Shown: positions 8,311 through 63,692 of the stretch, in pieces
Layout of the letters: each line of letters begins with the position of its first letter
Numbering within the stretch: the first letter of the stretch is position 1
Made by a program: the position numbers and the translations under genes
Notes under the pieces: model-generated
Seen by the model: the letters and a program-made list of their open reading frames with translations, nothing else
Databases searched by the model: none
What the model was told of the DNA's origin: nothing
Source of the DNA: Actinomycetota bacterium
GTDB lineage: Bacteria; Actinomycetota; Acidimicrobiia; Acidimicrobiales; JAMCPD01
NCBI GenBank assembly: GCA_023379935.1
Contig: JAMCPD010000003.1
Coordinates: 60,276-124,275, forward strand
Reading direction: 5' to 3'
Length of the DNA stretch: 64,000 nt

Positions 8311-8613
8311 ATGAAGAGAATAACAGCAAAAGAGTTGCGAGACAACCTTGGCCAAATTGTTATTAGAGTCAGAAGAGGTGAACCAATAAGAGTAACTTAC
8401 CGCTCAAAACCGGCATTTATCCTTTACCCGGAAAATGCATATGAGTCCGTTAAACAAGGGAGCCAAGAGGCAATGAAGCAGTTTCTTAGTGAGACAATTA
8501 AACTCAGCAAATCAAAGAACAGGTCAATCTTCGACCAAAACGAGAATGTCAAAGATCTATATCATAAAATGCTTGACAACGATGTGAAATATCGGGAATC
8601 ATCCAACAATTGA
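8311..8613 (+). CDS. Phd/YefM-type antitoxin
   Basis: MKRITAKELRDNLGQIVIRVRRGEPIRVTYRSKPAFILYP; 4-bp overlap with a PIN-domain ORF. Confidence 0.85.
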   Translation: MKRITAKELRDNLGQIVIRVRRGEPIRVTYRSKPAFILYPENAYESVKQGSQEAMKQFLSETIKLSKSKNRSIFDQNENVKDLYHKMLDNDVKYRESSNN

Positions 8614-8978
8614 GTACATTTTTAGACACGAATGTTTTACTAGAAGTCCTGTTGCCGGATAGACCGAAAGCAAAAATTGCAGCAAAGTGCGCACAACGAG
8701 AATCAGTTGTGTCTCCGTTAACGGCACACCTTTACGTGTATTTCGGGAAAAAAGAAGGTTTTCCGTTAGATTCGCTAATGCGGAATCTAACACTATTGAA
8801 ATTCACAGATCTTGGTGATGCCGAGGTGCGATGGGCTGTAGCAAACTGCCAAGGCGATGATTTTGAGGATGCCCTCCAGGTGGCATGTGCTGTTACGTAC
8901 GGTTGTGAAGTATTTGTAACTCTAGACAAGTCCTTGGCCCAGAGATACAGAAGGTTTATAGACGTGAAGGTAGTTTGA
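8610..8978 (+). CDS. PIN-domain toxin (VapC-like)
   Basis: STFLDTNVLLEVLLPDRP...DDFEDALQVACAVTYGCEVFVTLDKSLA; TTG start. Confidence 0.85.
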   Translation: MSTFLDTNVLLEVLLPDRPKAKIAAKCAQRESVVSPLTAHLYVYFGKKEGFPLDSLMRNLTLLKFTDLGDAEVRWAVANCQGDDFEDALQVACAVTYGCEVFVTLDKSLAQRYRRFIDVKVV

Positions 8979-27015: not shown

Positions 27016-30000
27016 TTAGGAGTACCACCCCACTACATCAACTGCAACGTTCACATCTCCGCTAAAGTTGTATATCTCTATATCACCAGAAGGGTTTAAC
27101 CCAACTGTGACAAAGTTGGGTATGCTCTGGCCCGCCACAAAGTTCAGGTTTGAAGAGGCCAAACATGCAGGAGCTGGTTCATCTCCCGGACATACACTCA
27201 AATAACTCGGGACACTTGACCCAATTGCCGTGACGTTTAGTACCACAGCTGTCGCTCCTTTTGGAACAGGGGTTTCCCCTGAAGAGAGATAGGGGCTTTG
27301 ATACCCTGCTACCTGGACTTGGATACCGCTTTTAGCCGGTATTGGAGAAGCACCGTAAAAATCACACTGGTTCTCAATTATAGAGGTAGTGTTGGCAGCC
27401 CTTGTATCGCATATTCTATAAGGTGAACTGGCACTTGTAAAGGTTGACCCTTCACCGCCCGGAGCAGATATCCAACCAGAGACATCAACCGCTATATTGA
27501 CTTGCCCCGAGAAGTTGTATATCTCTATGTCACCGGTAGAAGAAAGCCCCACCACCACAGAGTTGGGTATGTTTTGTCCCGCCACAAAGTTCAGGTTTGA
27601 AGAGGCCAAACATGCAGAAGAGGCTTCACCGCCCGGACACACACTCAAGTAACTTGGGGAGGTTCCTCCGATGGCTGTAACGTTTAGCACTACAGCGGTA
27701 GCACCTTTTGGAACAGGGGTTTCCCCTGAAGGTAAATAGGGGCTGTTGTATCCTGCTACCTGAACTTGGATACCGCTTTTAGCCGGTATTGGAGAAGCAC
27801 CGTTTGTATCACACTGGTTCTCAATTATAGAGGTAGTGTTGGCAGCCCTTGTATCGCATATTCTATAAGGAGAGGAAAGAGAGTTGAAGGAACCTTGACC
27901 TTGAATTGAAACTGTACCCACATAGCCTTCTACGTCAACCGCCACATTTACACTTCCTGCGAAGTTGTATATCTCTATATCACCGGCAGAAGAACCGGAG
28001 GTCGGCAGTCCTACCTGGACCAGGTTTGGTATGCTCTGGCCCGCCACAAAGTTCAGGTTTGAAGAGGCCAAACATGCAGAAGAGGCTTCACCGCCCGGAC
28101 ACACACTCAAATAACTCGGGACACTACCTCCAATTGCCGTGACGTTTAGCACTACAGCGGTAGCACCTTTTGGAACAGGGGTTTCCCCTGAAGGTAAATA
28201 GGGGCTGTTGTATCCTGCTACCTGAACTTGGATACCGCTTTTAGCCGGTATTGGAGAAGCACCGTTTGTATCACACTGGTTCTCAATTATAGAGGTAGTG
28301 TTGGCAGCCCTTGTATCGCATATTCTATAAGGAGATAGAGGGGTATAGCCGGGAGAAACAAGATAATCAAAATTAACTCCGCTTGAAGTACCGCCTTGTG
28401 TTGTCAAGGTAACGGAAACTGTACCGCCGGTTGGCGGCCCGACAGGCGAAGTAGCGCTACAAGAGGTTGTGGAAGAACAAGAGACGCTTGTTGCCGCGTT
28501 TGCCGATCCAAAATCAACTGTTGTTCCTCCTGTGACAGTTGAAAAGTTGGTACCGGTGAGGGTAACAACTGTCCCACCTGCGGCTGACCCAAAAGTCGGG
28601 GAAATTGAAGAAACCGTTGGAGCTGGTATATAAGTAAAGTTAATACCGCTTGTGGTTCCGCTTGGAGTTGTCAGGGTAACAGATACAGTTCCTGTTCCAG
28701 AAGGTGATACGGCACTACAAGAGGAAGTGGAAGAACAAGAGACGCTTGTAGCGGGATTGGCTGGTCCAAAATCAACTGTTGTGCCGCCTGTGACAGTTGA
28801 AAAGTTCGTGCCATCAAGCGTCACAATTGTCCCGCCGGCTTGAGGTCCTGAGGTCGGTGATATGGAGGTAAGGGTTGGAGTCGGCATGTAGGAAAAATTG
28901 ATACCGTTTGTGGTTCCACTTGAAGTTGTCAGGGTAACAGAGACTGTCCCTGTTCCAGAAGGTGACACGGCGGTACATGAGGTGGTTGAAGAACAAGAGA
29001 CGCTTGTAGCGGGATTGGCTGGTCCAAAATCAACTGTTGTGCCGCCGGATGCTGTTGAAAAGCCGGTACCGGTGAGTGTCACACTTGTTCCGCCTGATGG
29101 AGGTCCGGAAGTCGGTGAAATCGAGGAAAGCGTTGGAGCTGATGTGTAGGTATAGTTGATGCCGTTTGTAGTTCCACTTAAAGTTGTCAGGGTAACAGAG
29201 ACTGTCCCTGTTCCCGAAGGTGACAAAGCGGTACAGGTGGTTGTAGAAGAACAAGAGACAGACGGTGCGGGATTTGTCGATCCAAAGTCAACCGTTGTAC
29301 CGCCGGATGCTGTTGAAAAGCCGGTACCGTCAAGTGTCACACTTGTTCCGCCTGCGGTTGGCCCTGAAGTCGGAGAGATGGAGGTTAGGGTCGGAGCTGA
29401 CATGTAGGTAAAATAGATCCCATTTGAAGTTCCGCCTTGAGTTGTCAGGGTAACAGAGACTGTCCCGCTTCCAGAAGGTGATACAGCGGTACAGGTGGTT
29501 GTAGATGAACAAGAGACTGATGTAGCGGGATTGGCTGATCCAAAGTCAACGGTCGTAGCGCCTGATGAAGTGTCAAAGCCGGCACCGGTGAGCGTCACAG
29601 TTGTGCCACCTGATGGGGATCCGGAAGTCGGTGAAATCGAGGAAAGCGTTGGAGCCGTCGAAAGAATCACTATATAACGGTTGGTATTGCCTACCGCCTC
29701 ACAGAGGTTAGCTGAGGAACTGATTGATACACACAAGATAGAGTTCACGGCGGTAACTGTTGAAGGAAAGGTCTGAGTCGACCAGCTCGTGCCGTTGTAG
29801 CCGATAACAGTATTACCCGCTGCCTCACAAAAACTGGACGATGTACACGATACGCTGTTGAGAGTGGTCCCCGAAGGAAGAGTCTGGAGGGCTGACCAGG
29901 AGGTGCCGTTGTAGGATATAGCGATTCCGGGTCCGACCGCCTCACAAAAACTGGCTGATGTGCACGATACGCTGGCGAGCGAAGTGATCCCCGTTGGCAA

Positions 30001-32487
30001 AGTCTGGGTTGACCATGTGCTGCCGTTGTAGGATATAGCGATGCCGGTATAAGTGCGAGTCGAGCTGTTGTAGTTATACCCTACCGCCTCACAAAAACTG
30101 GACGATGTACACGATACGCCGTTGAGGTAAGTAACACTTGAGGGAAGAGTCTGGAGGGCTGACCAGGAGGTGCCGTTGTAGGATATAGCAATACCGGTAT
30201 AAGTGTTGGTCGAACTGTTGTAGTTATATCCTACCGCCTCACAAAAACTGGACGATGTGCACGATACACTGGCGAGCGAAGTGATCCCCGAAGGAAGAGC
30301 TTGTGAGAGCCACGTACTGCCGTTGTAGGATATAGCGGCATCTGTTCCCACCGCCTCACAGAAACCCGGCACACACGATACGCCATAAAGACCGGTAACT
30401 CCCGACGGGAGAGTTTGCGTCAACCATGTACTGCCGTTGTAGGTAAATACAAAGCCGGGTCCTACCGCCTCACAAAAGCTTTGAGATGTACATGATACAC
30501 TGGCGAGCGAAGTAAGCCCCGAGGGAAGTATCTGTGTTGACCAGGTAGTTCCGTTGTAACTGGCGGCAGTGTTCCACCCTACCGCCTCACAGAAACCCGG
30601 CACACACGATAGGCTATTGAGAGAAGATACCCCTTGGGGAAGAGCTTGGGTTGTCCAAGCAGTTCCATTGTAGCCAACGGCAGTACCGGTTCCTACCGCC
30701 TCACAGAAGCTGGACGATGTGCATGATACACTATAAAGACCGACAACCCCTGAAGGAAGGATCTGGGTTGACCAACTACTCCCGTTATAGGAAATGGCGA
30801 TGTTCCCTACCGCCTCACAAAAACTGGCTGATGTGCATGATACGCTGGCGAGGTAAGAGACTGCTTGGGGAATAGTCTGTGCAGACCAGCTACCTCCGTT
30901 GTAGGAGAGGGCTATGTTCCCTACCGCCTCACAAAAACTGGCTGATAGACACGATATGCTGTGAAGGTAAGTAACTCCAAGCGGAAGGTTTTGTTCAGAC
31001 CATGTTCCGCTGTTATAGACGAAGGCAATGCCGGTAGAGGTGCCGGTAGAGTTGTTGTAGTACCACCCTACCGCCTCACAAACGCTAGTAGAAAGACACG
31101 CGACACCGCTCAGGGAAGATGCCCCTGGTGGCAGGGACTGGGTTGACCAGCTGGTGCCGTTGTAAACGACGGCAATGGAAGTTTGAGTGCCGGTCGCACT
31201 GTTGTAGTTGTATCCCACTCCCTCGCAGAAGCTGGATGAGGGACAGGAAACGCTGTTCAGGTAAGAGACTCCCTGCGGGAGGGATTGATACACCCAGCTC
31301 GTGCCGTTATAGCCAAGTGCAGTATTTCCTACCGCTTCACAAGAGTTGGATGAGGAACACGTTATGCCGTTGAGATAAGATACTCCTTGCGGGAGAGTCT
31401 CAGATACCCAACTGGTGCCGTTATAAGCAACAACGGTGTTTCCCGCTGCTTCACAAAAGGTGGTTGATTCACAGGATACTCCATAAAGGTGCTGAGCTCC
31501 TTGCGGGAGAGTCTGGGTTGACCAAGTACCGTTGTATCCAATAGCGACACCAGTCCCTGTTGCCTCGCAAAAACTGGACGATGTACATGATACGCTAAGA
31601 AGGCCCGCGACCCCTGGTGGCAAAGACTGGGTTGACCAGCTCGTACCGTTGTAAACGACAGCAGTACTGGTCGCCACCGCCTCACAGAAACTGGATGAGG
31701 GACATGATACGCTAAGAAGACCCGAGACCCCTGAAGGGAGGGACTGGGTTGACCAGCTGGTGCCGTTGTAAACGACAGCACTGTTTCCTACCGCTTCACA
31801 AAAACCGGTAGTTACACACGAAACGCTGTTGAGGGTGACCCCAGAAGGAAGGGACTGGGTTGACCAAGTGCCTCCCTGGTAAACAACGGCGGTGGTTCCC
31901 CCTGTTGCCTCACAGAAACTGGACGATGTGCACGATACACTAAGAAGACCCGAGACCCCAGAAGGAAGGGGTTGGGTTGACCAAGTACCGCTCTTGTAGA
32001 CAATGGCGGTATTCCCTACTGCCTCACAGGAACTGGTAGTTACACACGAGATGCCGCCAAGGGAAGACACTCCCGAAGGAAGCAATGCCGTACTATTTGA
32101 CCATGTTATTCCCCCATCAGTTGTTTGATAAACTGCCGGTCCGCCCACGCTATTGACACCTACAGCAAAACAGACAGATGAACTCGGACATGATACAGAG
32201 TTAAACTGTCCAGCTGGTGAAAGATACTCCTGCTGTGTCTGCCAGTAAAGAGAGCCGGATGTAGACGCATATGCACTAGCCGCCAACCCAACAAGTGCCG
32301 CTAAACTGATAGCAATCGAACTTATCGTCATGCAGATACGTAGCGGGAGCCCTATTTTAGACTTCAACACTTGAATCCCTACAGGATGATTATTGCTTGA
32401 AACCATTTGCGAACTCCTCCTTATAATTTTCAAATTCAAATGAAAGTAAATAACGGATATTACGTTCATGCTAGAGTAATCGCACAA
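27016..32487 (-). CDS. Giant secreted repeat protein: about 21 SVSC..FCEAVG repeats, 5 IPT/TIG domains, 3 C-terminal YRICDTR domains
   Basis: Signal peptide then tandem LxSVSCTSSSFCEAVG..YNGTSWSTQ units; APTLSSISPTSGSPSGGTTVTLTGAGF TIG units; three YRICDTRAANTTSIIENQC...VAVDVEGY units. Confidence 0.9.
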   Translation of the reverse strand: MCDYSSMNVISVIYFHLNLKIIRRSSQMVSSNNHPVGIQVLKSKIGLPLRICMTISSIAISLAALVGLAASAYASTSGSLYWQTQQEYLSPAGQFNSVSCPSSSVCFAVGVNSVGGPAVYQTTDGGITWSNSTALLPSGVSSLGGISCVTTSSCEAVGNTAIVYKSGTWSTQPLPSGVSGLLSVSCTSSSFCEATGGTTAVVYQGGTWSTQSLPSGVTLNSVSCVTTGFCEAVGNSAVVYNGTSWSTQSLPSGVSGLLSVSCPSSSFCEAVATSTAVVYNGTSWSTQSLPPGVAGLLSVSCTSSSFCEATGTGVAIGYNGTWSTQTLPQGAQHLYGVSCESTTFCEAAGNTVVAYNGTSWVSETLPQGVSYLNGITCSSSNSCEAVGNTALGYNGTSWVYQSLPQGVSYLNSVSCPSSSFCEGVGYNYNSATGTQTSIAVVYNGTSWSTQSLPPGASSLSGVACLSTSVCEAVGWYYNNSTGTSTGIAFVYNSGTWSEQNLPLGVTYLHSISCLSASFCEAVGNIALSYNGGSWSAQTIPQAVSYLASVSCTSASFCEAVGNIAISYNGSSWSTQILPSGVVGLYSVSCTSSSFCEAVGTGTAVGYNGTAWTTQALPQGVSSLNSLSCVPGFCEAVGWNTAASYNGTTWSTQILPSGLTSLASVSCTSQSFCEAVGPGFVFTYNGSTWLTQTLPSGVTGLYGVSCVPGFCEAVGTDAAISYNGSTWLSQALPSGITSLASVSCTSSSFCEAVGYNYNSSTNTYTGIAISYNGTSWSALQTLPSSVTYLNGVSCTSSSFCEAVGYNYNSSTRTYTGIAISYNGSTWSTQTLPTGITSLASVSCTSASFCEAVGPGIAISYNGTSWSALQTLPSGTTLNSVSCTSSSFCEAAGNTVIGYNGTSWSTQTFPSTVTAVNSILCVSISSSANLCEAVGNTNRYIVILSTAPTLSSISPTSGSPSGGTTVTLTGAGFDTSSGATTVDFGSANPATSVSCSSTTTCTAVSPSGSGTVSVTLTTQGGTSNGIYFTYMSAPTLTSISPTSGPTAGGTSVTLDGTGFSTASGGTTVDFGSTNPAPSVSCSSTTTCTALSPSGTGTVSVTLTTLSGTTNGINYTYTSAPTLSSISPTSGPPSGGTSVTLTGTGFSTASGGTTVDFGPANPATSVSCSSTTSCTAVSPSGTGTVSVTLTTSSGTTNGINFSYMPTPTLTSISPTSGPQAGGTIVTLDGTNFSTVTGGTTVDFGPANPATSVSCSSTSSCSAVSPSGTGTVSVTLTTPSGTTSGINFTYIPAPTVSSISPTFGSAAGGTVVTLTGTNFSTVTGGTTVDFGSANAATSVSCSSTTSCSATSPVGPPTGGTVSVTLTTQGGTSSGVNFDYLVSPGYTPLSPYRICDTRAANTTSIIENQCDTNGASPIPAKSGIQVQVAGYNSPYLPSGETPVPKGATAVVLNVTAIGGSVPSYLSVCPGGEASSACLASSNLNFVAGQSIPNLVQVGLPTSGSSAGDIEIYNFAGSVNVAVDVEGYVGTVSIQGQGSFNSLSSPYRICDTRAANTTSIIENQCDTNGASPIPAKSGIQVQVAGYNSPYLPSGETPVPKGATAVVLNVTAIGGTSPSYLSVCPGGEASSACLASSNLNFVAGQNIPNSVVVGLSSTGDIEIYNFSGQVNIAVDVSGWISAPGGEGSTFTSASSPYRICDTRAANTTSIIENQCDFYGASPIPAKSGIQVQVAGYQSPYLSSGETPVPKGATAVVLNVTAIGSSVPSYLSVCPGDEPAPACLASSNLNFVAGQSIPNFVTVGLNPSGDIEIYNFSGDVNVAVDVVGWYS
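27050..28340 (-). repeat. Three near-identical repeats, about 450 bp each, encoding the C-terminal domains
   Basis: Anchor gcatattctataagg at about 27411, 27859 and 28319; gttgtatatctctatatcacc recurring at about 27066, 27514 and 27964. Confidence 0.85.
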
Positions 32488-46780: not shown

Positions 46781-46856
46781 GCCCTCGTAGCTCAACGGAC
46801 AGAGCGGTTGCCTTCTAAGCAATAGGTTGCAGGTTCGAGTCCTGCCGGGGGCGCCA
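46781..46856 (+). tRNA. tRNA-Arg (UCU), CCA encoded
   Basis: GCCCTCG...CGGGGGC acceptor, loop CTTCTAA, GGTTCGAGTCC, terminal GCCA. Confidence 0.95.
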
Positions 46857-47038: not shown

Positions 47039-47428
47039 TCAGATGCGCATCGGTGTCGCTGTTTTCCAGGGTGCACAAGCGAACAGAGCAGTCAAGACAG
47101 CCATCGCGTCGACGATGTGTTTGGCAGCCTCGAGATGTAGAAGCGTTCCCTGGCTAGGCGTTTCGTGCCTTCGGCTGTCCGGAACGACCCAGAAATCTTC
47201 TGCGGAGTTGGCCATCTGCAGATCAGACTCGGCTTGGTTGTTGGAGAATGGAACACGGAGGTCATTCGCAAACAGCGTGACCTCTGGCAACAGGTCGCGT
47301 AGCGCCAAGACATAGCCAGTCATAGAGGTTGCACAAGCATATGAGAAAGGACCTACACTAGGATACTCATTCAACCAACCCAAAAGTAAATACAAGTGGG
47401 TCAACTTTAGTTTGCTGAAGTGGGTCAA
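47039..47428 (-). pseudogene. IS66-family transposase relic (frameshifted)
   Basis: NDLRVPFSNNQAESDLQMA in one frame continues as QKISGSFRTAEGTKRLARERFYIS in another (ORF 47092-47313). Confidence 0.85.
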
Positions 47429-47719: not shown

Positions 47720-48148
47720 TTATCTCAGCGGATTGATCCAGGTAACCCTATCAGCGAAGAGTGCAAAGTCGCTGTCAGCCGAGACAATCGGTAACCCGTG
47801 CTCTATCGCAATCGCAGCCAAATGGGCATCGGCAATCAAATTACCTGATAATTTGAAACCTGTAACCAACCCGCCAAATACTTCTATGTGTCGATCGGTC
47901 GGGACTGGATGCCATACTAGATCAGCTGCCGCCCAGGCGTATACGTAATCCAAGGCATTATCCGGACTCAACGGATTGCGCATTGCTCGCGGATTGGTGA
48001 CAATCCGGACGAACCCTGCTAATGATTCCCAGGGCATGCCTATCCGCGTTGATCCGTTCAGCGCTGACTCGAGCCATGTACGCACCGTGCTGTGCTCGGA
48101 AGACATCTCATCGACGGCATATATCAGAATATTGGTATCAATGAGCAT
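47720..48148 (-). CDS. vapC: PIN-domain toxin VapC
   Basis: MLIDTNILIYAVDEMSSEH...GNLIADAHLAAIAIEHGLPIVSADSDFALF. Confidence 0.93.
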   Translation of the reverse strand: MLIDTNILIYAVDEMSSEHSTVRTWLESALNGSTRIGMPWESLAGFVRIVTNPRAMRNPLSPDNALDYVYAWAAADLVWHPVPTDRHIEVFGGLVTGFKLSGNLIADAHLAAIAIEHGLPIVSADSDFALFADRVTWINPLR

Positions 48149-48378
48149 CAGCGACGCGTGGATCCTTCAAGGAGATCAAGTACCTCTGCAGTATTACGGA
48201 TGTCGATCAGTGCACCAAGAGGGGCTGTCCGCTGTTTGAACGGATGGCGGGAACTCTCCGCCACGCAGGCTCGGCGAATAAGGTCGTTCACCGCCTTGGA
48301 AACTCCTATGCCCTTGTCACGGCGGAGTTTGTCAATTATCGCCGCATTGTCACTGTCGAAAGTCACTGTGGTTCTCAT
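48148..48378 (-). CDS. vapB: VapB-type antitoxin
   Basis: MRTTVTFDSDNAAIIDKLRRDKGIGVSKAVNDLIRRAC; abuts VapC. Confidence 0.85.
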   Translation of the reverse strand: MRTTVTFDSDNAAIIDKLRRDKGIGVSKAVNDLIRRACVAESSRHPFKQRTAPLGALIDIRNTAEVLDLLEGSTRR

Positions 48379-48385
48379 GATCTCA

Positions 48386-48407
48386 TTATAGCATATGTAT
48401 GCTGTAA
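48386..48407. promoter_or_regulatory. Inverted repeat TTATAGCATA-TG-TATGCTGTAA, putative vapBC operator
   Basis: 10-bp arms with one mismatch, directly upstream of vapB. Confidence 0.55.
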
Positions 48408-49156
48408 TGTAAACACTATGATGCAATCATCAGTACCACAGAGAGGACATCCTGCTGGATGTAGCTCTGCTGCCGGAAAGGGTGCTGCCCTGGCCACTTA
48501 CCGCACCTGCATGAATCAGCGACGCGCATATCCACCGAGAACCGTGGCGGCGCGGTATCTGACCACGCAACCCGGTGGATGGCGTGTGGTAAAAGAGCTC
48601 TTAACTTGTGGTCAGTATCGAAATCAGGTAATATCGAAGCAGGTCAAGCCCAATTGTGAAGACCTCGCAATTGTGATGTCGCGAGACATACGCTAGGCGT
48701 CAAAGTGGTTCTACGCACATGCATGAGAAATTGAATGAGTGTTATTTGTCAGGTATTGCGAGGAAGTATGTTTCAAGGCTTGGTTTTGGACAAGGTAGGA
48801 TATAAGAAATCATTCTTGGGAAATATGAGAAATATTCCGATTGCGTGAATTATTGAAGCTGTGACTCAAGTGTTAAGCGATGGTAATAGTTGAAAGTAGA
48901 TCCCAGTTTGGTTTGCCAGCATATAAAAGTGACCTAATTCTGTAGTGTTTGAAGCTTCTAAAGCCAAATGAAACTCGTTTTATACGTTTAATTGTCAATG
49001 GCCGTGCAGTTTTGCATGTCCGCCACCGTGCAATTTTTTGACCGCATGTATGCAGTTTTGCATGTCCGTTAACAATCTGGACACAAAGTGCAGAGGCAAT
49101 CTTGGGGTAGGTCAAGAACGGTGGTGCTCACTAAATGCAACCACCAATCAAAAATG

Positions 49157-49521: not shown

Positions 49522-49821
49522 TTATCGATACTCAAAAGAAGCTAACGCTACCTGTTGGACCTGATAGTTAGCGTCCTCGGTCAATAAAGTTACAATAGGT
49601 TCTGGCGTAAAGGTGGACGTACCTAGGGCTAGTTTGACATCCAGACTGCCATAACGCGCCAAATAAAAGTAAGCGCTCATAGTAATGTGACCGTCAGGAT
49701 TAAATATCAAATCAACTAGCTCCACATCGGACATTTTGTTCAACTGTCCTGTAGTGGACTGAGTAGCGCTATCCGAATCGACTAACTCTGCATCGGACAT
49801 TTTGCGTAAGTGCTTATCCAT
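49522..49821 (-). CDS. Small variant leucine-rich/HEAT-like repeat protein
   Basis: HITMSAYFYLARYGSLDVKLALGTSTFTPEPIVTLLTEDANYQVQQVALAS; internal KMSDAELVD / KMSDVELVD duplication. Confidence 0.5.
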   Translation of the reverse strand: MDKHLRKMSDAELVDSDSATQSTTGQLNKMSDVELVDLIFNPDGHITMSAYFYLARYGSLDVKLALGTSTFTPEPIVTLLTEDANYQVQQVALASFEYR

Positions 49822-49908: not shown

Positions 49909-50487
49909 ATGGAGGTTACACCGTTACCAACCACCCAAGAAGAGCTATACGAATTATTGAAAAGTACGACAGTTGGCGGCAAGCGGTTTGTTATCAATAT
50001 TAATGAAGGAGGGCAAATCCGATCAGTCGTTCTGATAGATGCCAAAGAGTTGTCTTCTATTGAAGAGACTTTATCGCTGATGGAAGACGCAGATGAGATC
50101 AAACGAATCAAGAATGGAGATTTAGCGGTTCACACCGGAGATTTCCTAAGTGAAAATGAGATTATTGAAGAGTTTCAAAAACTTGGACATCCAACAAATA
50201 TACAGAGAAGTTATGCTCAATGGCATTTAGTCATTGCCAGGCAAGTAAGAAATACGGTTTTTTCCTTTAATTTCACTGAGATACAAGATCTATTAAAGTT
50301 TTTGTTTAATGATTTGCTTAGCCAACACGAAAAACTCGGCTCCAGGCTATTGGCGGATCTATCCGGACTCGCGACAGTTCGTCATGGAGAGTTTCGTATT
50401 ATCTATCGCCTTGACAATACACAAAAGGTCCTTAGGGTAATAGAGGTTCAAAAAAATCCCGATTATCAATATGTTGAGCCGCGTTGA
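49909..50487 (+). CDS. Fused Phd-type antitoxin and RelE-type toxin (single ORF)
   Basis: N-terminus Phd-like (FVININEGGQIRSVVLIDAKELSSIEETLSLMEDADEIKRIKNGD); C-terminus RelE-like (WHLVIARQVRNTVF...LGSRLLADLSGLATVRHGEFRIIYRLDNTQKVLRVIEVQKNPDYQY). Confidence 0.85.
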   Translation: MEVTPLPTTQEELYELLKSTTVGGKRFVININEGGQIRSVVLIDAKELSSIEETLSLMEDADEIKRIKNGDLAVHTGDFLSENEIIEEFQKLGHPTNIQRSYAQWHLVIARQVRNTVFSFNFTEIQDLLKFLFNDLLSQHEKLGSRLLADLSGLATVRHGEFRIIYRLDNTQKVLRVIEVQKNPDYQYVEPR

Positions 50488-50495
50488 GCCTGCAA

Positions 50496-51416
50496 TCACC
50501 GTGAAGGATGGCAAAGATACAGCCCACTTGGCAACACGTTTGGTCGGTGAACAGCATCCTGAAGTACTTCCACCACGGTGCGTGTCGCTGCTGACGGCAG
50601 TTCCCGTTTTTGATACACAATACCCACCACCCGCCTGGGTAGCATATTAACCTTTATCAACCTCCAACGGTCACTTATGATAGGCGGAAGACCGGTTATG
50701 GGTAGTATGGCAGGCCCATACCCCGCAAATGCCAGTGAAGCTATTAACCTTACCCCATCAACCTCCAATTTCGGATGCAACTTTACACCGGTTTGTTTGC
50801 TCGCTTGGTCTATTTCATGTCTGTAGCCTGTATTTCTCAGGGGAAGCAAGAGTGGCAGGTCGGATAACTCCGACAACTCCACCGATTCTCTATTTGACAA
50901 AGGGTTATCTACCGGTATTGCCAAACATAGGTCTTCTTCAAAAAATTCTACAGTGGTTAGCTCTTTGTTTGAAATTGGAAGGTCTAATATGGCAAAATCC
51001 ACTTGACCAACAAGCAGGTAAGACTCTAAGACAGTGGATGTCCCTTCTATAATGACCAGTTTAATTTTAGGATAATATTTGTTTATTGTTTCCATCAATT
51101 CCGGAACTACCCATCGTGCTGTAGTGCCGATTATTCCTACTTTGACCGTTCCGCTTACCTCTTTGGTAAAGGCTGCCAGGTCTGAATGCAACGCATCAAT
51201 TTCATTCATAATCCGTTGCGCCCTGGCGGCTACTATCTCCCCCTCTTGAGTGAGGGCAATCAAGTCTCTATTAATTAAAGTAACGCCAAGCTCACGTTCC
51301 AATTTTGCAATATGACTTGAAATATTGGATTGTACGGTACCTAAAACATCCGCGGCAGATGTAAAGCCACCATGATCGACAATAGTAAGTAGTATTTTTA
51401 ACTGTTTTAACTCCAC
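50496..51416 (-). CDS. LysR-family transcriptional regulator
   Basis: MELKQLKILLTIVDHGGFTSAADVLGTVQSNISSHIAKLERELGVTLINR. Confidence 0.96.
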   Translation of the reverse strand: MELKQLKILLTIVDHGGFTSAADVLGTVQSNISSHIAKLERELGVTLINRDLIALTQEGEIVAARAQRIMNEIDALHSDLAAFTKEVSGTVKVGIIGTTARWVVPELMETINKYYPKIKLVIIEGTSTVLESYLLVGQVDFAILDLPISNKELTTVEFFEEDLCLAIPVDNPLSNRESVELSELSDLPLLLPLRNTGYRHEIDQASKQTGVKLHPKLEVDGVRLIASLAFAGYGPAILPITGLPPIISDRWRLIKVNMLPRRVVGIVYQKRELPSAATRTVVEVLQDAVHRPNVLPSGLYLCHPSR

Positions 51417-51732: not shown

Positions 51733-53139
51733 TTGCTTGTGAGAATGTTGAACGGCAAGCGTATGAGACTGTGGCGTATGAAGGTAGCTATCTGGATGGG
51801 ACTTGGGTTCGCTAAAACAACGAAGGCCCTCGGATTGGGACAAGGAGAGCAGCTGGGCGGTCGTGTTTGTCTGTATGTTTATCCGATGGCTATTCATGAT
51901 TTAGCGAAAGGCAAAAAGACGGCTCTCATAAGTGGGACCAACGGTAAAACCACTACAACCTCATTGCTACGTGCTGCTTTAGCTTTACCGGCTATATCAA
52001 ACGAGAACGGATCAGGCCAGATTAACGTAATAAGCAATACCGGTGGAGCAAACTTGCCAAGCGGCATTACGACAGCTCTTTTTTCTGCACACGCCGAAGA
52101 CTCATTCTGTGTTTTTGAGGTGGATGAGAGTTATTTAGGCGAGGTAGCTCGCGCCGTACTGCCAAAAGTCATAGTTTTGTTAAACTTAAGTCGAGATCAG
52201 CTTGATCGTGTCAGTGAGGTAAAAATGCTTGCCGAAAAGTGGAAAACCGCTCTTGAACTGGAATGTTTAGCCAATGTTCACCTGGTTGTGAATGCCGATG
52301 ATCCGATGGTTGTATGGGCCGTAGGTAACCGAGGTGGGGGTGAGCTGGTTACTTGGGTGGGCGGCGGTGCAACCTGGTCGGCTGACGCTACAACTTGTCC
52401 TAACTGCGGTGGATATATCCGAAGAGATACCTCAAACTCCTGGTTTTGCGAATGTGATTTAAAACAACCTGAATATGACTGGTGGCTGGAAGACAACGGC
52501 AGTTTTTGTGTTGAGAAAAACAATAAGGACAAAATACCAATTCTTCTTGATCTGCCGGGTAGTTTCAATCGTTCCAATGCTCTAATGGCGACAGTTGCGG
52601 CAACTTTTTTTGGCATAAAAAAAGAGGATGCATTTGAAGCGATGCGGAATGTAACCGAAGTTGCCGGCAGATATAAAAAAGTCAAGTTTTCCCGTGGCAA
52701 TATTACATTCAGGCTCAGATTGTTGCTTGCAAAAAACCCTGCGGGATGGTGTGAAATATTTGATATTCTCGATCCTTCTTCTCCAGTGGTGGTTATGGCC
52801 ATTAACGCTAAAATTGCAGACGGGCAGGATACTTCCTGGCTTTGGGATGTTCCTTTTGAGATTATTGGAAAACGATATGTTGTTAGCAGTGGCGAGCGGG
52901 GATGGGATTTGGGGGTACGCTTAAAATATGCACAGGTAGAGCACAAAGTAGTAACAGATTTATCAGATGCCTTAAGCCACGCCGTTGATACCGCTATTCA
53001 AAGAACAGAAAGCCGCGGCGGTAAACAGTGCATAAAGATGGACTATGTGGCCAACTATACCGCCTTTCAATCACTGCAAAAAGTTATGTCGTCGGATAAG
53101 TCATATTCAAAAGTACTCCGGAAAGTTCGACCATTATGA
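51733..53139 (+). CDS. murT: Lipid II isoglutaminyl synthase subunit MurT (Mur ligase family)
   Basis: ALISGTNGKTTTTSLLRAAL; CPNCGGYIRRDTSNSWFCECDLKQPEYDW; followed by gatD. Confidence 0.95.
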   Translation: MLVRMLNGKRMRLWRMKVAIWMGLGFAKTTKALGLGQGEQLGGRVCLYVYPMAIHDLAKGKKTALISGTNGKTTTTSLLRAALALPAISNENGSGQINVISNTGGANLPSGITTALFSAHAEDSFCVFEVDESYLGEVARAVLPKVIVLLNLSRDQLDRVSEVKMLAEKWKTALELECLANVHLVVNADDPMVVWAVGNRGGGELVTWVGGGATWSADATTCPNCGGYIRRDTSNSWFCECDLKQPEYDWWLEDNGSFCVEKNNKDKIPILLDLPGSFNRSNALMATVAATFFGIKKEDAFEAMRNVTEVAGRYKKVKFSRGNITFRLRLLLAKNPAGWCEIFDILDPSSPVVVMAINAKIADGQDTSWLWDVPFEIIGKRYVVSSGERGWDLGVRLKYAQVEHKVVTDLSDALSHAVDTAIQRTESRGGKQCIKMDYVANYTAFQSLQKVMSSDKSYSKVLRKVRPL

Positions 53140-53846
53140 AGGCTGATATACAGATTGTAAATGTCTATCCTGACCTGTTGGGTACTTATGGTGATCGAGG
53201 AAACAGTATAATTCTGGCTAAGCGCCTGTCATGGAGAGGAGTTAAATCTCAAATTATAGATATATGCTTTGATCAACCTCTCCCCAAAGATGCACAAATC
53301 TACTGTTTGGGTGGCGGTGAGGATGTCGCCCAGGTTTCAGCCGCCAAACAACTGTCCGAATCATCCAACTTCGACTATGCGATAAAACAAGGAGCCGTAC
53401 TGTTGGCGGTGTGTGCCGGATTTCAAATAATAGGAGGCAGCTTTCCAGATCTCAATGGATCTGCTTGCAAGGGGATAGGAATACTGGATGCCAACACATT
53501 CAAGAATTCTTCTAAAAGAAGCTCCCGTGCAGTTGGAGAAGTAGTGGCCGATCCGTCGGCGGGTCTTGGGCTTGCAACCCTGATTGGTTTTGAAAACCAT
53601 TCCGGACTGACCAGGTTGGGTAACAGAACTACCCCCCTTGGTAGCGTACGAAAAGGAGTGGGGAACGGTTATGCAAAGCTTGAGGGTGCCATCGACGGAC
53701 ACGTGGTGGGCACCTACCTGCATGGTCCGGTTTTAGCGCGCAACCCTACCCTGGCTGATATGTTGCTCTCCTGGGTTGTAGACGACCCACTGCCTGAGCT
53801 CGATGACTCTGAGATAGATCAGCTGCGCGCACATATACGTAATTGA
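53136..53846 (+). CDS. gatD: Lipid II isoglutaminyl synthase glutaminase subunit GatD
   Basis: NVYPDLLGTYGDRGNSIILAKRLSWRG; VLLAVCAGFQIIGG; GTYLHGPVLARNPTLADMLL. Confidence 0.95.
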   Translation: MKADIQIVNVYPDLLGTYGDRGNSIILAKRLSWRGVKSQIIDICFDQPLPKDAQIYCLGGGEDVAQVSAAKQLSESSNFDYAIKQGAVLLAVCAGFQIIGGSFPDLNGSACKGIGILDANTFKNSSKRSSRAVGEVVADPSAGLGLATLIGFENHSGLTRLGNRTTPLGSVRKGVGNGYAKLEGAIDGHVVGTYLHGPVLARNPTLADMLLSWVVDDPLPELDDSEIDQLRAHIRN

Positions 53847-53993: not shown

Positions 53994-55457
53994 GTGTATA
54001 ATGGACTTGTTCGTTCGGGGATAACTGTTGTTGTCGGAATGGTGCTTCTGGCAACCTGCGGTAGCGGATCCTCGCGGATAAGTACACCTCATACGCCAAC
54101 GGGTATACACAAGATTCGCCATATAGTAGTTATCTTTCAAGAGAACCGCTCTTTTGATTCTTACTTCGGAACTTACCCTGGGGCAACAGGCATCCCCATG
54201 GCAAACGGAATACCCACTGTGTGCGTTCCCAATCCCGCCAACGGCCAGTGCGTCAAACCTTATCTGGATCATGCCGACATGAACGGGGGCGGACCTCATA
54301 ACGATGTCAACAGCATTGCAGACGTAAACGGCGGAAATATGAACGGGTTTATAGCTCAAGCTGAAAAGGGCAGAAAGGGCTGTCTTATTCCCACCAATCC
54401 CGCCTGCACCAACTCTGCAACTCCTGATGTAATGGGATACCATAATGGTGCCGACATACCTAACTACTGGGCATATGCACATAATTTTGTACTTCAGGAC
54501 CATATGTTCGAATCTGTCCATTCCTGGAGTTTTCCCTCGCACCTTTATCTCATATCAGGGTGGTCGGCTACCTGTTCCAACCCGGCCGACCCTATGAGTT
54601 GCTCCAGTGCAGTTGATCCGCGCCTCGCATCGGCCCAAGATCCCACTCCTTATGCCTGGACAGAACTTACCTGGCTCCTGCACCGTTATCATGTAAGCTG
54701 GGGGTGGTACCTGGACAAAGGGGCACAACCACTCGGGTTTGGCGGCCATCATGGGAAAAATAGAAAAACAGCCGGAATTAAAAGGAGTAAAGGGCCTAAA
54801 CCGGCCAAGTCAATGGCTGGTGTGCCAAAGATATGGAATGTACTACCCGGGTTTACTGATGTATACCAAGATAACCAGCAAGCCAATATTCGCCTCCTGA
54901 CCAACTTCTTCATCGCGGCTAAGGCCGGCAAACTCCCCCAGGTTTCCTGGATCTTGCCAAATGCCTATGACAGCGAGCACCCGCCCGCTTTGGTCAGTGT
55001 AGGACAGTCCTATGTAACTAATATAGTAAATGCTGTAATGAAGAGTCCCGACTGGAACTCTACGGCCATCTTTATTACTTGGGATGATTGGGGCGGATTT
55101 TATGACAATGTCGTCCCGCCGCAAGTTGACACCTTGGGCTATGGCATAAGAGTGCCGGGACTGGTCATAAGTGCTTATGCAAAACCCGGTTACATAGATC
55201 ACCAGACTTTGAGTTTTGACGCATACTTAAAGTTCATTGAAGATGATTTTATGGGCGGAGCACGGTTAAACCCAAAGACGGACGGGCGAGCTGACCCGCG
55301 TCCTGATGTGAGAGAAAATGCCCCGATACTTGGCAACCTGGTCAACGATTTTAACTTTAACCAAAAACCGCTGCCGCCTTTGATACTCCCTACAGATCCT
55401 AAGACTGCCTTGGTGTGTCCTTTAGGTGGTTCTCCAGGCGTGAATGGTGGTTGTTGA
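53994..55457 (+). CDS. Secreted phospholipase C / acid phosphatase-type phosphoesterase
   Basis: IRHIVVIFQENRSFDSYFGTYPGA; HSWSFPSHLYLISGWSATC; TAIFITWDDWGGFYDNVVPPQVD. Confidence 0.93.
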   Translation: MYNGLVRSGITVVVGMVLLATCGSGSSRISTPHTPTGIHKIRHIVVIFQENRSFDSYFGTYPGATGIPMANGIPTVCVPNPANGQCVKPYLDHADMNGGGPHNDVNSIADVNGGNMNGFIAQAEKGRKGCLIPTNPACTNSATPDVMGYHNGADIPNYWAYAHNFVLQDHMFESVHSWSFPSHLYLISGWSATCSNPADPMSCSSAVDPRLASAQDPTPYAWTELTWLLHRYHVSWGWYLDKGAQPLGFGGHHGKNRKTAGIKRSKGPKPAKSMAGVPKIWNVLPGFTDVYQDNQQANIRLLTNFFIAAKAGKLPQVSWILPNAYDSEHPPALVSVGQSYVTNIVNAVMKSPDWNSTAIFITWDDWGGFYDNVVPPQVDTLGYGIRVPGLVISAYAKPGYIDHQTLSFDAYLKFIEDDFMGGARLNPKTDGRADPRPDVRENAPILGNLVNDFNFNQKPLPPLILPTDPKTALVCPLGGSPGVNGGC

Positions 55458-57747
55458 TCAAGTTCAATGCGCTGCCCGCCTTGAACCACTCAATATGAGC
55501 TTGTGCCATCGTGTGAGAACAAGAGAACTCTTCGCTTGTGTTGTCTGCATGGACAATACGGCAGTTTACCGGCTTGTCGGGAGCTAAATCGGCAAGATCA
55601 AGAGTTGAAATTCTGTCTTTTTCGCCTATTTTGTCATAGGTGGCGGAATCAACAAAGGTTAGGGGGAGCACCCCTTGGGTTTTGAGGTTTGTTTCGTGTA
55701 TACGGGCAAATGATTTTGCAATCACCACCACACAACCCATATATCTGGGCTCCATGGCAGCATGCTCTCGCGAAGAGCCTTCACCGTAGTTGTTGTCACC
55801 TATGACTGTCCATCTCCACTTTGCGGCTTTGTAATGACGGGCAATACTCGGATAAGGTTCAACGACATTGTGTATAAGGCAGAATCCGGTTCCCACCTCA
55901 CCGCTATAGGCATTTGTTACTCCCGAGAAAAGGTTTCCGGAGATGTTTTCTAAATGTCCCCTGTATTTGAGCCATTCGCCTGCGGGCGATATCTGATCGG
56001 TTGTGCATTTGCCCTTGGCTTTTAAAAGTATGGGCAGTTTTGTGAAGTTGTTTCCATCCCAAGGCTCAAACGGTTCCAACAACTGCAGTCGTTGGCTGGC
56101 CGGATCAACTTTGACAGTAATGCTCTGGGGATCGTCCGATGGTGGAATAAATCCCGCAGGGGTTGCAGAAAAGCCTTTCGCCGGCAGTTCTTCACCGGCG
56201 GGAGGAATTAATTTTACTCCATCAATCGTGTCTTTTAACGGGTTGAAATCCAATCTTCCGAAAAGAGCATAGGCGACAACAATCTCAGGGGAAGCTATAA
56301 AAGCCAGAGTTTGCGGGTTGCCGTCGTTGCGCTTCGGAAAGTTTCGATTATAAGAAGTGAGTATAGAGTTGGGTGTCGAAGGCTCTATGTCACTGCGCTT
56401 CCACTGTCCTATGCAAGGTCCGCAAGCGTTTGCCAACACCGTAGCACCAATTGCCTCTAGGTCTTTCAACAACCCGTCTCGTTGTATGGTATCATGCACC
56501 TTTTGCGAACCTGGAGTAATCAACAACGGTGTTTTGACTTTTAACCCGTTTTTTACCGCTTGAGCTGCCAGCACAGCAGCCTTGCTTATGTCCTCATAGG
56601 AAGAGTTGGTGCAGGAACCAACCAGGCAGTAGGAGAGGGTAAGCGGCCACTTCTCGGCTTTGGCTTCTTCACCGATTTTCGAGGTTGGCCGAACTCTGTC
56701 CGGTGTATGAGGTCCGGAAATTTGAGGTTCAAGAGTCGACAAGTCTATCTCTATAACCTGATCAAAGAAGTCTTCGGGTCTTTCTTCTACTTCGGGATCG
56801 ACTTGGAGATCACCCGCTATTTGATCCGAAGATTCTGCTATTTCAGCCCTACCGGTTGCGCTCAGGTAGGAAGCCGTGTGGTGGTCATAGGGGAAGAGCG
56901 AACAGGTGGCTCCGACCTCAGCCCCCATATTACATATAGTGGCTTTACCGGTCGCACTGATACTCTTTGTACCGGGGCCGAAATACTCAATTATCGCTCC
57001 GGTGCCGCCGGCGACTGTGAGAATATCGGCAACCTTCAAAATCACGTCTTTTGGTGCCGTCCAACCGTTCATTCCGTCATTAAGTAGTCCCTTGAGATGA
57101 ACTCCTATCAGTTTTGGCCAACGCAGGTTAAAACCTGTACCAACCATGACATCCACCGCATCGGCACCTCCAACACCAATAGCTATCATGGATAACCCGC
57201 CCGCATTTGGAGTATGGCTGTCAGTTCCAACGAGCATTCCACCGGGGAACGCATACTGTTCAAGTACTACTTGGTGGATTATGCCGCTTCCCGGTGACCA
57301 ATACCCTATTCCATAACGCTCAGACGCACTCTTTAAAAACTCATAAACTTCCATGTTTGCCTCTAATGCACGTGCTAAATCCTGATCTGCTCCTACTTGG
57401 GCTTGAATCAAATGATCACAGTGGACCGAACTTGAAACCGCCACCGCATCCATCCCTGCAGTCATAAACTGTAAGAGAGCCATTTGGGCAGTGGCATCCT
57501 GCATCGCTACGCGATCGGGATACAAGGTGGCGTAAGAGTGTTGCCGTATTGGTATCTGAACTTCGGCTGGACGATCTCCACCTGATTCGGTATAAGGTGA
57601 TCTAAGGTGGGCAAAGAGAATCTTTTCCGCCAACGTCAATGGCCTGGCCAGCTGTTTGCGCATTGTCATGGTGGTGTCAGCAATCAACTTGTGTACATTT
57701 CTGACAAGCCCTATATCAGTCGTAGATTGTGTGTTGTTTGATGTCAT
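55399..57747 (-). CDS. acn: Aconitate hydratase
   Basis: VGTDSHTPNAGGLSMIAIGVGGADAVDVM; VGSCTNSSYEDI; NACGPCIGQW; GDNNYGEGSSREHAAMEPRYMG. Confidence 0.97.
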   Translation of the reverse strand: MTSNNTQSTTDIGLVRNVHKLIADTTMTMRKQLARPLTLAEKILFAHLRSPYTESGGDRPAEVQIPIRQHSYATLYPDRVAMQDATAQMALLQFMTAGMDAVAVSSSVHCDHLIQAQVGADQDLARALEANMEVYEFLKSASERYGIGYWSPGSGIIHQVVLEQYAFPGGMLVGTDSHTPNAGGLSMIAIGVGGADAVDVMVGTGFNLRWPKLIGVHLKGLLNDGMNGWTAPKDVILKVADILTVAGGTGAIIEYFGPGTKSISATGKATICNMGAEVGATCSLFPYDHHTASYLSATGRAEIAESSDQIAGDLQVDPEVEERPEDFFDQVIEIDLSTLEPQISGPHTPDRVRPTSKIGEEAKAEKWPLTLSYCLVGSCTNSSYEDISKAAVLAAQAVKNGLKVKTPLLITPGSQKVHDTIQRDGLLKDLEAIGATVLANACGPCIGQWKRSDIEPSTPNSILTSYNRNFPKRNDGNPQTLAFIASPEIVVAYALFGRLDFNPLKDTIDGVKLIPPAGEELPAKGFSATPAGFIPPSDDPQSITVKVDPASQRLQLLEPFEPWDGNNFTKLPILLKAKGKCTTDQISPAGEWLKYRGHLENISGNLFSGVTNAYSGEVGTGFCLIHNVVEPYPSIARHYKAAKWRWTVIGDNNYGEGSSREHAAMEPRYMGCVVVIAKSFARIHETNLKTQGVLPLTFVDSATYDKIGEKDRISTLDLADLAPDKPVNCRIVHADNTSEEFSCSHTMAQAHIEWFKAGSALNLINNHHSRLENHLKDTPRQS

Positions 57748-59470: not shown

Positions 59471-62400
59471 GTGTTAGCAGCCAGAAGAAGGACAGTTGGA
59501 TCACGGTGGGCTCTGGCACCGCTCGCGGTGTTGGCCCTGCTTTCTCTCGGCTCTGTGGCGCTCGGCGCAGCACCCGCCTCGGCGGCATCCTCGGGCACCT
59601 CATGGTCAGCTCCAACAACTATCGATACAACCATCAGCCCCTCCAATTCCCTCAATTCCGTCTCATGTCCATCTGCAACCTTTTGTGTGGCGGTGGACGG
59701 AAATGGCAACGCCCTAACCTACAACGGCACGAGCTGGTCGTCTCCCACAAACATTGACGGCACCAACCAGCTCCATTCTGTCTCGTGTGTATCTGCAAGT
59801 TTTTGTATGGCAGTGGGAGGTGGCAACGTCCTCACCTACAACGGTACGAGCTGGTCGGCTCCCACAAACATTGACGGCACCAATTGGCTCTATTCCGTCT
59901 CGTGTGTATCTACAAGCTTTTGTATGGCTGTGGATAGCAATGGCAACGCGCTCACCTACAACGGCACGAGCTGGACGAGTTCACAAATTGGCACCAATTC
60001 CATCGGTTCCGTCTCGTGTGTATCTACAAGCTTTTGTGCGGCAGTGGGAGGTGTCAACGCCCTCACCTACAACGGCACAAGCTGGTCTACTCCGAATTAT
60101 ATTGACGTGCCTGGGTTCAGTTCCGTCTCGTGTGTATCTACAAGCTTTTGTGTGGCGGTGGATGGGCGTGGCAACGCCCTAACCTACAACGGCACGAGCT
60201 GGTCGGCTCCTGCCAGTATTGACGGCACCAATTCCCTCAGTTCCGTCTCGTGTGTATCTGCAAGCTTTTGTGCGGCGGTAGACTGGGGTGGCAACGCCCT
60301 CACCTACGGTAGCGGAAGCTTTGTCCCAGCGATCACCTCCATCACTCCGCCGACAGGTCCGATAGTAGGTGGAACACTCGTGACAATAAACGGCTTGGCT
60401 TTCACCGGTGTCACCTCTGTCAACTTTGGTGGCAAGCCTGCAAAGTCCTTCACCGTCAACTCCTCCACCATGATTACAGCGATCACCCCCGCTACAAGCT
60501 CCGTCGGGCCGGTAGCGGTATCCCTCGGATCAAACAGCACAACGGCAGTGTCGACGACCCCAGATACGATCTTCACCTACATTCCCAATCTCAACTACAA
60601 CTGGTACACCAACCAAGCATGCCAGAGCACCGGTTGGAGCTATGGCATCCTTTACTGCGGCGGAGGCTCGGTTATCCATAGCCCGAGGACGGTTCTCATC
60701 TTGTGGGGAACCCAGTGGTGTGGCACAAACCCGATTGGGATCGACGCCTCAGGTCAACTAACTACCTGCACCCCCGACACGACACCGGACACATCGCTGG
60801 TGCCACAGACCGTCATTCAGGTCCAGCACATGCTGTCGCTGCTGCCGCGAAGTCCATGGGCCAACATCCTCGCTGATTATTACGATGCCGGGGGCTTCGT
60901 GAGTAATAACATTGAGTTCTTCGGGACGGTCGTCTACGCAAACGATACCTATCCCGGACCGCAGGGAACCGCGACGCTCGCCGCTGTTGCTGCCGCCGCG
61001 AATAAAGATCTTGGGGACAATAACATCGGCGGAACAGTCGATATCGTGCTGTATTCGCCGAATGTGAGCAATACTAACACGAGCTTGCAGAATTCCTGCG
61101 GTGACCACATAACCCAGATCTCTGGGGAACCGGTGATTGCGCCGATACCCACTTCTATGTGCTCTGCTGCTTTTGTTGAGAGCGGTAAGCCGGATCCTTT
61201 TGCTAAGATCGGTCTGCCAAACTTTGCCACATTGGCTGTGTCACACGAGGTGGCAGAGGTGATCACAGACCCTGGACTTGGAGGTAATGGCTGGATAATT
61301 AACTACCCGGGGGAGAGCGGCGGAGGAGAGATCGCTGACTACTGCGAAACAAACATGACCACGTACGACACGTACCTTGATGGAGTCGACGTAGCACAGC
61401 TCTATGACCCGGTTACGAAACGCTGCAGCGCTAGCAATTTTTTCAGTACGCCTCCCGCACCAGGGGTGAGTGTTACCACCCATAACGGCTCAGAAGTCCT
61501 CTTGGTTACCCTTGCGAGCTCCGCAAACACCTTCCCACCTGTGCTCGGCTCTCTGGTCAAGGAGTACGAGCGCAACCCTCAGGGCAACTGGGTCCCGATC
61601 CTCACTGCAGTAGCGTCTGGAACGCAGGGATACCTTCCACTTCCTGCGAGCGGGGAGACGATCTGCGTAAAGTATGCCGACCTTGTAGGAGGTGGCAGCA
61701 CGCCGATGTCTCCTTGTTCCGCTGGGTCCGTGGTACCAAACGTGCAGCTACTGTCGTACCCTCAATGGAAAGCAGCCATAGGTCTTGGAGGTTCGGGGAG
61801 TTCTGTACCCAAACCGCGAACGACGGGTGCTACGAGTTCCACCAGCAGCCAAGCCGATGGATCGGCCATGGTGAACGACGGGAGCAATATCTCGGTCTCA
61901 GCGGAAGGAATTGGTACGATCACGGAGCAGGATGCCAGCTCTGATCCCGTAAGCGCGGTTCCTTCCCTTGGTCCGGCGAGCTACTTTAGCGTGTCGACAT
62001 CCCCGGGTAGCGTGTTCAGCCTCGCCTACGTAGAGGTGTGCGGGCTGTCGCCTTCTGCAGGAAGCATTGAGTACTACAGCAACGGTATCTGGCAATTCGC
62101 CTCGAACTTCGACTTGAGCTCGGGAGACGGCTGCGGTGTATTGCAGGTGGACACCTCTTCGTCCCCGTCACTCGCGCAGTTGGAGGGAGGTGGTGTCGAG
62201 TTCGCCTCGGGGAACGCACAAACCCCCCCCGTCGGTGGTGTCTTTGAGCCCCACATCGGGCCAGGAGTCCGGGGGATCAACAGTAACTATCACTGGGACA
62301 GGCTTTACGGGTGCCTCCGCGGTCGACTTTGGGACTTCACCTGCGACAAATGTTGTGGTGGTGTCGGACTCGGAGATCACGGCCGTCTCACCGGCAGGAC

Positions 62401-63692
62401 CCATGGGTGGAGGCCCTGTGCCTGTGACTGTGACGACTCCGGCAGGTACGACAACCGCCGGTGTTAGCGCCCAGTACCTCTACACCCAACAGGGCCCCTA
62501 CACCCCTGTCGCGCCATACCGAATCTGCGATACCCGAACCGGAAACAGCACGCCCTGTACAGGGCAGATATTGGTAAGCGGAGGCAGCCTCGATGTCCAA
62601 GTGGCAGGTACCGAACCGCCAGGGTCCACGGTGGGTGGCGTGCCGAGCGACGCTACGGCAGCTGTGCTGAATGTCACCGCCGTCGGCCCGACCAACTCAG
62701 GCTACTTGACCGTGTATCCAACAGGGACTACTCGGGCGTTCGCCTCGAGCTTGAACTTTGTGGCCGGCCAGACTGTCGCGAACCTCGTCACAGTGGCGCT
62801 CGGGGTGAACGGCCAGGTAACAGTCTTTAACTCCATGGGCATGACAAACGTCGTAGTCGACGTGGAGGGCTACATAAGCGCATCTTCGGGGTCAAACTAC
62901 ACGCCAATCACACCGCTTAGGATATGTGATACCAGGACCTCCAACCCCTCTTCGCTCACCGGCGCCTTCGCACAGTGCAATGCCAAGACCCTCGCTGCAA
63001 AGGTTCCCCTCGCCGTACAGGTAACAGGACTCGGCTCAATCCCTGCCTCTGCGAGCGGAGTCGTCATGAACGTTACAGTCACCAGCCCTCATGCCTCGGG
63101 GTATCTGACTGTCTACCCGGCAGGCGAATCACCCCCATTGGCAAGCAATGTGGACTTCTCTGCCGGTCAAACGATCCCGAACGGAGCGGCAGTTAAGCTT
63201 CCCGCGTCGGGCGCAATCGACATCGTGTCGAACACCTCCACAAACGTCATCCTCGATGTGGAGGGGTACTACTCCACCTCGGGATCCACCTATATTCCCA
63301 TAGCCCCTGAACGCATCGCCGACACCCGCTGCTCGGCCACCCCGACACCCTCCTACTGCCAGGCAGAGCAGCTCCCTCCCCAGAACCAGGGGCTTAGTGC
63401 CGTCGGCACAGGTGGGATGATCTCGCTTGTGACAGGGGGCATCAACTCGATACCTTTGAGCGCTACCGCGGTGGTGCTGAACGTTACGGTCACCTCCACG
63501 GCCTCCAGTTCGTTCCTCACGGTTTACCCGGCAGGCTCTACCCGGCCAACAGCGTCGAGCCTCAACTGGGTGAAGGGAGCAACGGTGGCGAACGTCGTGA
63601 TAGCACCGGTCGGCTCGAACGGCACCGTCGAAATCTACAACTACTCAGGCTCAACCGATGTCGTGGTCGACATAGAGGGCTACTACAGCTGA
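59471..63692 (+). pseudogene. Large secreted repeat protein (SVSC repeats, IPT/TIG, HEVAEVITDP domain, IPT/TIG, three YRICDTR-type domains) split by a frameshift at about 62223-62230
   Basis: ORFs 59471-62467 and 62136-63692 join in sense at C8. Same architecture as 27016-32487. Confidence 0.85.

Follow-up and report, generated by a model that had tools for sequence, protein, structure and literature searches.

A fused RelB-RelE gene at a conserved locus in one bacterial order, probably a retired toxin-antitoxin pair

Introduction

The closest described relatives of the gene presented here are two toxin-antitoxin (TA) pairs of Mycobacterium tuberculosis, RelBE1 (Rv1247c-Rv1246c, 9G12) and RelBE2 (Rv2865-Rv2866, 3G5O). 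RelE1 is a demonstrated active toxin whose toxicity requires R60, R65, R85 and Y89 (PMC12620021), and the DNA binding of the antitoxin YefM requires R10 and R31 (PMC4803016). RelBE1 and RelBE2 are each encoded by two genes, whereas the gene described below, with the same families in the same order and with the same folds, encodes one polypeptide, which keeps the equivalents of R60 and R65 of RelBE1 but lacks those of R85, Y89 and the antitoxin residues R10 and R31.

Fused TA genes are already known. EzeT of Escherichia coli (PMC4803016) carries, as here, an N-terminal antitoxin domain, in its case cis-acting, tethered to a C-terminal toxin, but the toxin is a zeta-type kinase that is active after removal of the N-terminus. 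CapRel (PMC9712102) also holds toxin and antitoxin in a single chain, but belongs to the toxic small alarmone synthetase family and is a proven phage sensor. Slr1999 of Synechocystis, a HicA-HicB protein (PMC4963859), is likewise a conventional two-gene TA that became fused; its toxin family is different and it was reported without a fused homologue elsewhere, whereas the present fusion has at least seven. Within the RelE/ParE superfamily, PMC11980606 tabulates 195 fusions, including YefM-YoeB (e.g. that of Mycobacterium shinjukuense), given there as five prokaryotic cases and predicted to dimerise and bind operators; these share with the present protein an N-terminal Phd/YefM-type antitoxin and a C-terminal RelE-superfamily toxin, but the toxin is YoeB and not of the RelE1/2 type, and Table 2 of that work holds no RelB-RelE1/2 antitoxin-toxin fusion. 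No paper describing the fused clade was found within the limited set of literature searched. The RelB-RelE fusion is a further variant of such single-chain systems.

Domain organization of the fused protein

The gene lies in a 64,000-nucleotide stretch of Actinomycetota DNA, hereafter the window. It spans 49909-50487 on the forward strand and encodes 192 amino acids from an ATG start to a TGA stop, uninterrupted by other stops or frame changes, confirming the one continuous antitoxin-toxin frame of the initial annotation, which the homologues described below share. Residues 1-91 (49909-50181) form the RelB/Phd-YefM antitoxin part, consisting of an N-terminal segment (1-44) followed by toxin-binding helices at about 59-91; the AlphaFold2 model places helices at 45-58, 61-76 and 82-91. 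A linker of about residues 92-103 (50182-50217) leads to the RelE part, residues 104-192 (50218-50484).

Single-sequence phmmer searches of the PDB matched residues 129-183 to RelE 9g12_A (6.5e-6), residues 128-185 to Rv2866 (2.9e-4) and residues 2-87 to RelB 9g12_C (9.4e-4), together with a weak match of residues 1-91 to Rv2865 (0.26). With a profile built from the eight fused homologues the same structures were recovered far more strongly: 1.6e-14 for RelE 9g12_A, 2.1e-12 for RelB 9g12_C, 1.1e-11 for Rv2865 (3g5o_A) and 2.4e-9 for Rv2866. The AlphaFold2 model (pLDDT 82.5, pTM 0.74) gave RelE1 (9g12) and RelE2 (3g5o) as top Foldseek matches and also recovered RelB1 (9g12_C). The RelE fold of the C-terminal half, whose absence had been named as a possible refutation, is hence found by HMM/profile searches and by structure comparison alike, and the proposed Phd/RelB-type antitoxin followed by RelE is right, being more exactly of the RelBE1/2 type. 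The halves match both partners of a single TA pair, that of M. tuberculosis RelBE1/RelBE2, in operon order. In Pfam both stay below the cut-offs, with 21.2 bits against 23 for ParE_toxin and 13.4 against 29.8 for PhdYefM, which is perhaps why the fused genes of this clade have gone unnamed.

By homology, with a RelB/Phd-YefM-type domain and a RelE fold, the protein belongs to the RelBE1/2-type proteins; with both domains in one polypeptide, in its homologues too, it is a fused TA mono-gene module. A functional type II RelBE system consists of two separate proteins, and here there is one 192-aa frame.

Homologues and origin of the fusion

Among 397 genomes of the order, 143 contain matches at E<=1e-5, in most cases with the halves separate or an in-frame stop present. 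Selection by open frame, not by motif, left eight distinct proteins with both domains in one open frame, distributed over seven families: that of the window (G000) and those of genomes G033, G039, G044, G060, G083, G123 and G241. The seven further homologues are 22-27% identical and come from six other families of the order. Outside the order, 396 genomes of the class yielded no fused copy at E<=1e-16; the matches there are to separate halves or carry an in-frame stop.

These homologues bear directly on whether two ordinary genes were united by an assembly or sequencing error, or in a decaying pseudogene. The assembly is a draft of 25 contigs, and no other genome from the family of the window was found for comparison; a family search for more relatives gave just one or two genomes each for the families of G060, G033 and G044. 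However, a sequencing error joining two genes, the refutation foreseen in the initial annotation, is excluded because fused homologues occur in six other families; seven other distinct fused proteins exist, five of their genomes share flanking LysR or MurT genes, the codons of a related pair are constrained (see below) and the fused proteins form a single clade. An artefact or pseudogene is therefore an extremely improbable explanation, rejected on the homologues, the shared locus and the codon constraint.

In a tree of 46 RelB+RelE pairs the eight fused proteins form one clade among the two-gene systems, with support of 0.86, and of 0.81 once the tail was removed from the alignment. In several two-gene cases (e.g. 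loci L039, L040 and L041) the two genes share a reading frame and are separated by a single stop, so that loss of that stop codon would suffice for fusion. We propose that the fusion arose once, in one bacterial order, out of a RelBE1/2-type module of two genes, probably when genes that already shared a frame lost the stop codon separating them, and that its inheritance has since been mostly vertical, at one fixed place in the chromosome. In a tree of the neighbouring MurT/GatD genes the window groups with G036 and G097, apart from the other fused genomes; the deep support of this tree is weak, so some transfer between lineages may have occurred.

Chromosomal neighbourhood

Six genomes, that of the window included, draw on a common set of parts comprising YqgE, the fusion, a GNAT acetyltransferase, a LysR-type regulator, MurT, GatD and aconitase. 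In the window the fusion is followed by the convergent LysR-type gene identified by Pfam (50496-51416, reverse strand), a gene whose product we take to be a MurT-type ligase (51733-53139, forward), a GatD-type glutamine amidotransferase gene matching Pfam GATase_3 (53136-53846, forward), a phosphoesterase gene and, presumably, aconitase (55399-57747, reverse). The order is fusion-LysR-MurT/GatD-aconitase in G060, fusion-MurT-GatD-aconitase in G033, fusion-GNAT-LysR-MurT/GatD in G044 and G039, and fusion-GNAT-LysR in G123, with YqgE upstream of the fusion in G039, G044 and G123. In G083 and G241 the shared neighbours were not seen within the stretches read.

G046 and G090, which belong to the same family as G123, show YqgE-GNAT-LysR-MurT with YqgE adjoining GNAT and no fusion between them; no convincing remnant of the fusion was found there, in G097 or at the other fusion-free loci. 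The shared neighbourhood points to an old gene that was inherited with its surroundings, some lineages having lost (or gained) it.

In G123 and G039 the fusion frame overlaps the start of the GNAT frame by 4 bases (L066 at 7473 and L096 at about 8244, in reverse-complement coordinates), which suggests that in these two genomes the fusion is translationally coupled to the acetyltransferase gene. A search for operator-like repeats 5' of the fusion yielded only one 14-nt direct repeat, and scans for promoters and terminators near the gene came close to chance. Between YbjQ and the fusion, the window has a 99-aa frame at 49522-49821 (reverse) with no Pfam match.

Other elements of the window are recorded here for completeness. 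At 47720-48426 (reverse), about 1.5 kb from the fusion, a PIN-domain toxin gene (Pfam PIN) follows a small same-strand frame with no Pfam match, likely a VapBC-type pair. A likely second TA pair consists of a PhdYefM antitoxin match above the Pfam cut-off at 8311-8487 (forward; G000:C3:68586-68762) and a PIN-toxin-like frame just 3' of it at 8610-8978 (forward). The frame at 47039-47428 (reverse) resembles by eye the end of an IS66-type transposase, with no Pfam match, and lies near a tRNA-Arg (46781-46856). Two long frames rich in short-motif repeats (e.g. VSCxSxSFCxAVG), at 27016-32487 (reverse) and 59471-62467 (forward), probably encode surface proteins.

Loss of catalytic and DNA-contact residues

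Concerning the toxin side, the R85 column was set by the spacing of RelE1 (20 residues from R65 to R85, 4 from R85 to Y89). An Arg occupies it in 38/38 two-gene toxins vs 0/8 fused ones, a difference with p=3.8e-9 in a Fisher test that ignores ancestry, so that the losses counted here and below may represent one or few events. The Y89 equivalent is present in 36/38 two-gene toxins vs 1/8 fused, the G060 homologue stopping short of this position, whereas equivalents of R60 and R65 are kept in six and seven of the eight fused proteins, respectively. In the window protein R158 corresponds to R60 and R163 to R65, with N183 at the R85 position and Q187 at that of Y89. The catalytic R60/R65/R85/Y89 set of a functional type II RelBE toxin is thus broken, nearly throughout the clade. 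A 'complete RelE toxin', as initially annotated, is too strong a description, since the fold is recovered but the usual C-terminal catalytic tail is not kept.

The antitoxin side shows a parallel pattern. Arg or Lys is found at the equivalent of YefM R10 in 37/38 two-gene antitoxins vs 0/8 fused, and at that of R31 in 38/39 vs 1/8; the window protein has Q10 and I31, and therefore not the DNA-contact residues of a functional type II system. A reduced charge of the toxin half, which would be a sign of lost RNA binding, was looked for and not seen: the fused toxin halves are still basic, their charge being unchanged.

It had been proposed that cleavage of the linker would free an active toxin. 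Such release by proteolysis would need an active toxin half and is not supported: R85 and Y89 are replaced (by N183 and Q187 here) nearly clade-wide, and these residues argue against an active toxin but do not exclude it. With catalytic and DNA-contact residues gone, neither toxin release nor classical autoregulation would be expected. A wider form of this idea is a working single-chain TA in the manner of EzeT or CapRel, in which RelE is inhibited in cis and freed by proteolysis, a phage protein or stress. Fused TAs that behave so exist (PMC4803016; PMC9712102), the basic charge is retained and so are most R60/R65 equivalents, so that residual or altered RNase activity may persist, and the window protein has K182 and Y186 just one residue off the R85 and Y89 positions, where, the tail alignment being short and divergent, they could substitute for them. 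We nevertheless regard this reading as unlikely: R85 is absent from all eight fused proteins and Y89 from seven, one of which ends before it, PADLOC matched the fusion to no defence-system family, and the gene sits at a fixed syntenic position amid housekeeping genes in six genomes.

Selection on the fused gene

Selection was assessed in one same-genus pair, G033/G083 (57% identical), the window's own lineage having no close relative. Of the third codon positions 63% have changed, and of the second positions 21%. The antitoxin part has a dN of 0.19, the toxin part one of 0.26 and the linker one of about 1; since synonymous sites are mostly saturated, no whole-gene dN/dS ratio is claimed. In this pair both domains are under purifying selection and the linker is free. 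Across the fused clade mean identity is 47% in the RelE core and 35% in the toxin-binding helices, falling to 22% in the N-terminal part, 17% in the tail and 13% in the linker, whose length and sequence vary freely in the alignment.

The better conservation of the toxin-binding helices relative to the N-terminal part would suit an anti-addiction or decoy protein that titrates the RelE toxins or RelB antitoxins which related two-gene modules produce, and such modules are abundant in the order, also in the fusion-bearing genomes G033, G044 and G241. But in the window's genome the fusion is the sole RelE/ParE-family match, so that the cell holds no such toxin of its own to neutralise, and a decoy would have to act on incoming toxins, as is possible; we consider this role improbable.

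A probable non-toxic role

The account that we favour, as the probable one, is that of an old, vertically inherited, self-neutralised RelB-RelE protein whose active site has decayed and which serves a non-toxic role, perhaps in RNA or ribosome binding. Fusion removes the usual switch of a TA pair, because the antitoxin can no longer be degraded on its own as a free protein, and the antitoxin half probably covers the toxin half permanently. A toxin that is covered at all times would be expected to lose its tail, and the pair its autoregulation; under lasting neutralisation the catalytic C-terminal tail would have gone from the toxin and the DNA-contact residues from the antitoxin. The fused protein would then lack toxicity, and would probably neither poison the cell nor repress its own promoter, but have another task. 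Constraint on both domains means that some function remains. The retained fold, charge and most of the R60/R65 equivalents make non-cleaving RNA or ribosome binding the leading guess for it. In its full form, a RelBE pair fused once, disarmed in both catalysis and DNA binding, and now a vertically inherited, non-toxic RNA or ribosome binder at a conserved locus, the proposal is more tentative, a plausible candidate rather than the expected outcome.

Significance

It has long been asked what role chromosomal TA genes play and whether they can be tamed and become genes like any other. A single clade here shows, side by side, a fusion, a fixed syntenic position, lost toxin and DNA-binding residues and ongoing purifying selection, and comparison material is at hand in two-gene relatives that keep the residues and in an empty site within one family (G046 and G090 vs G123). 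This combination opens the domestication of a RelBE module to direct testing, the fused gene probably being a former toxin pair that was retained for a different task.
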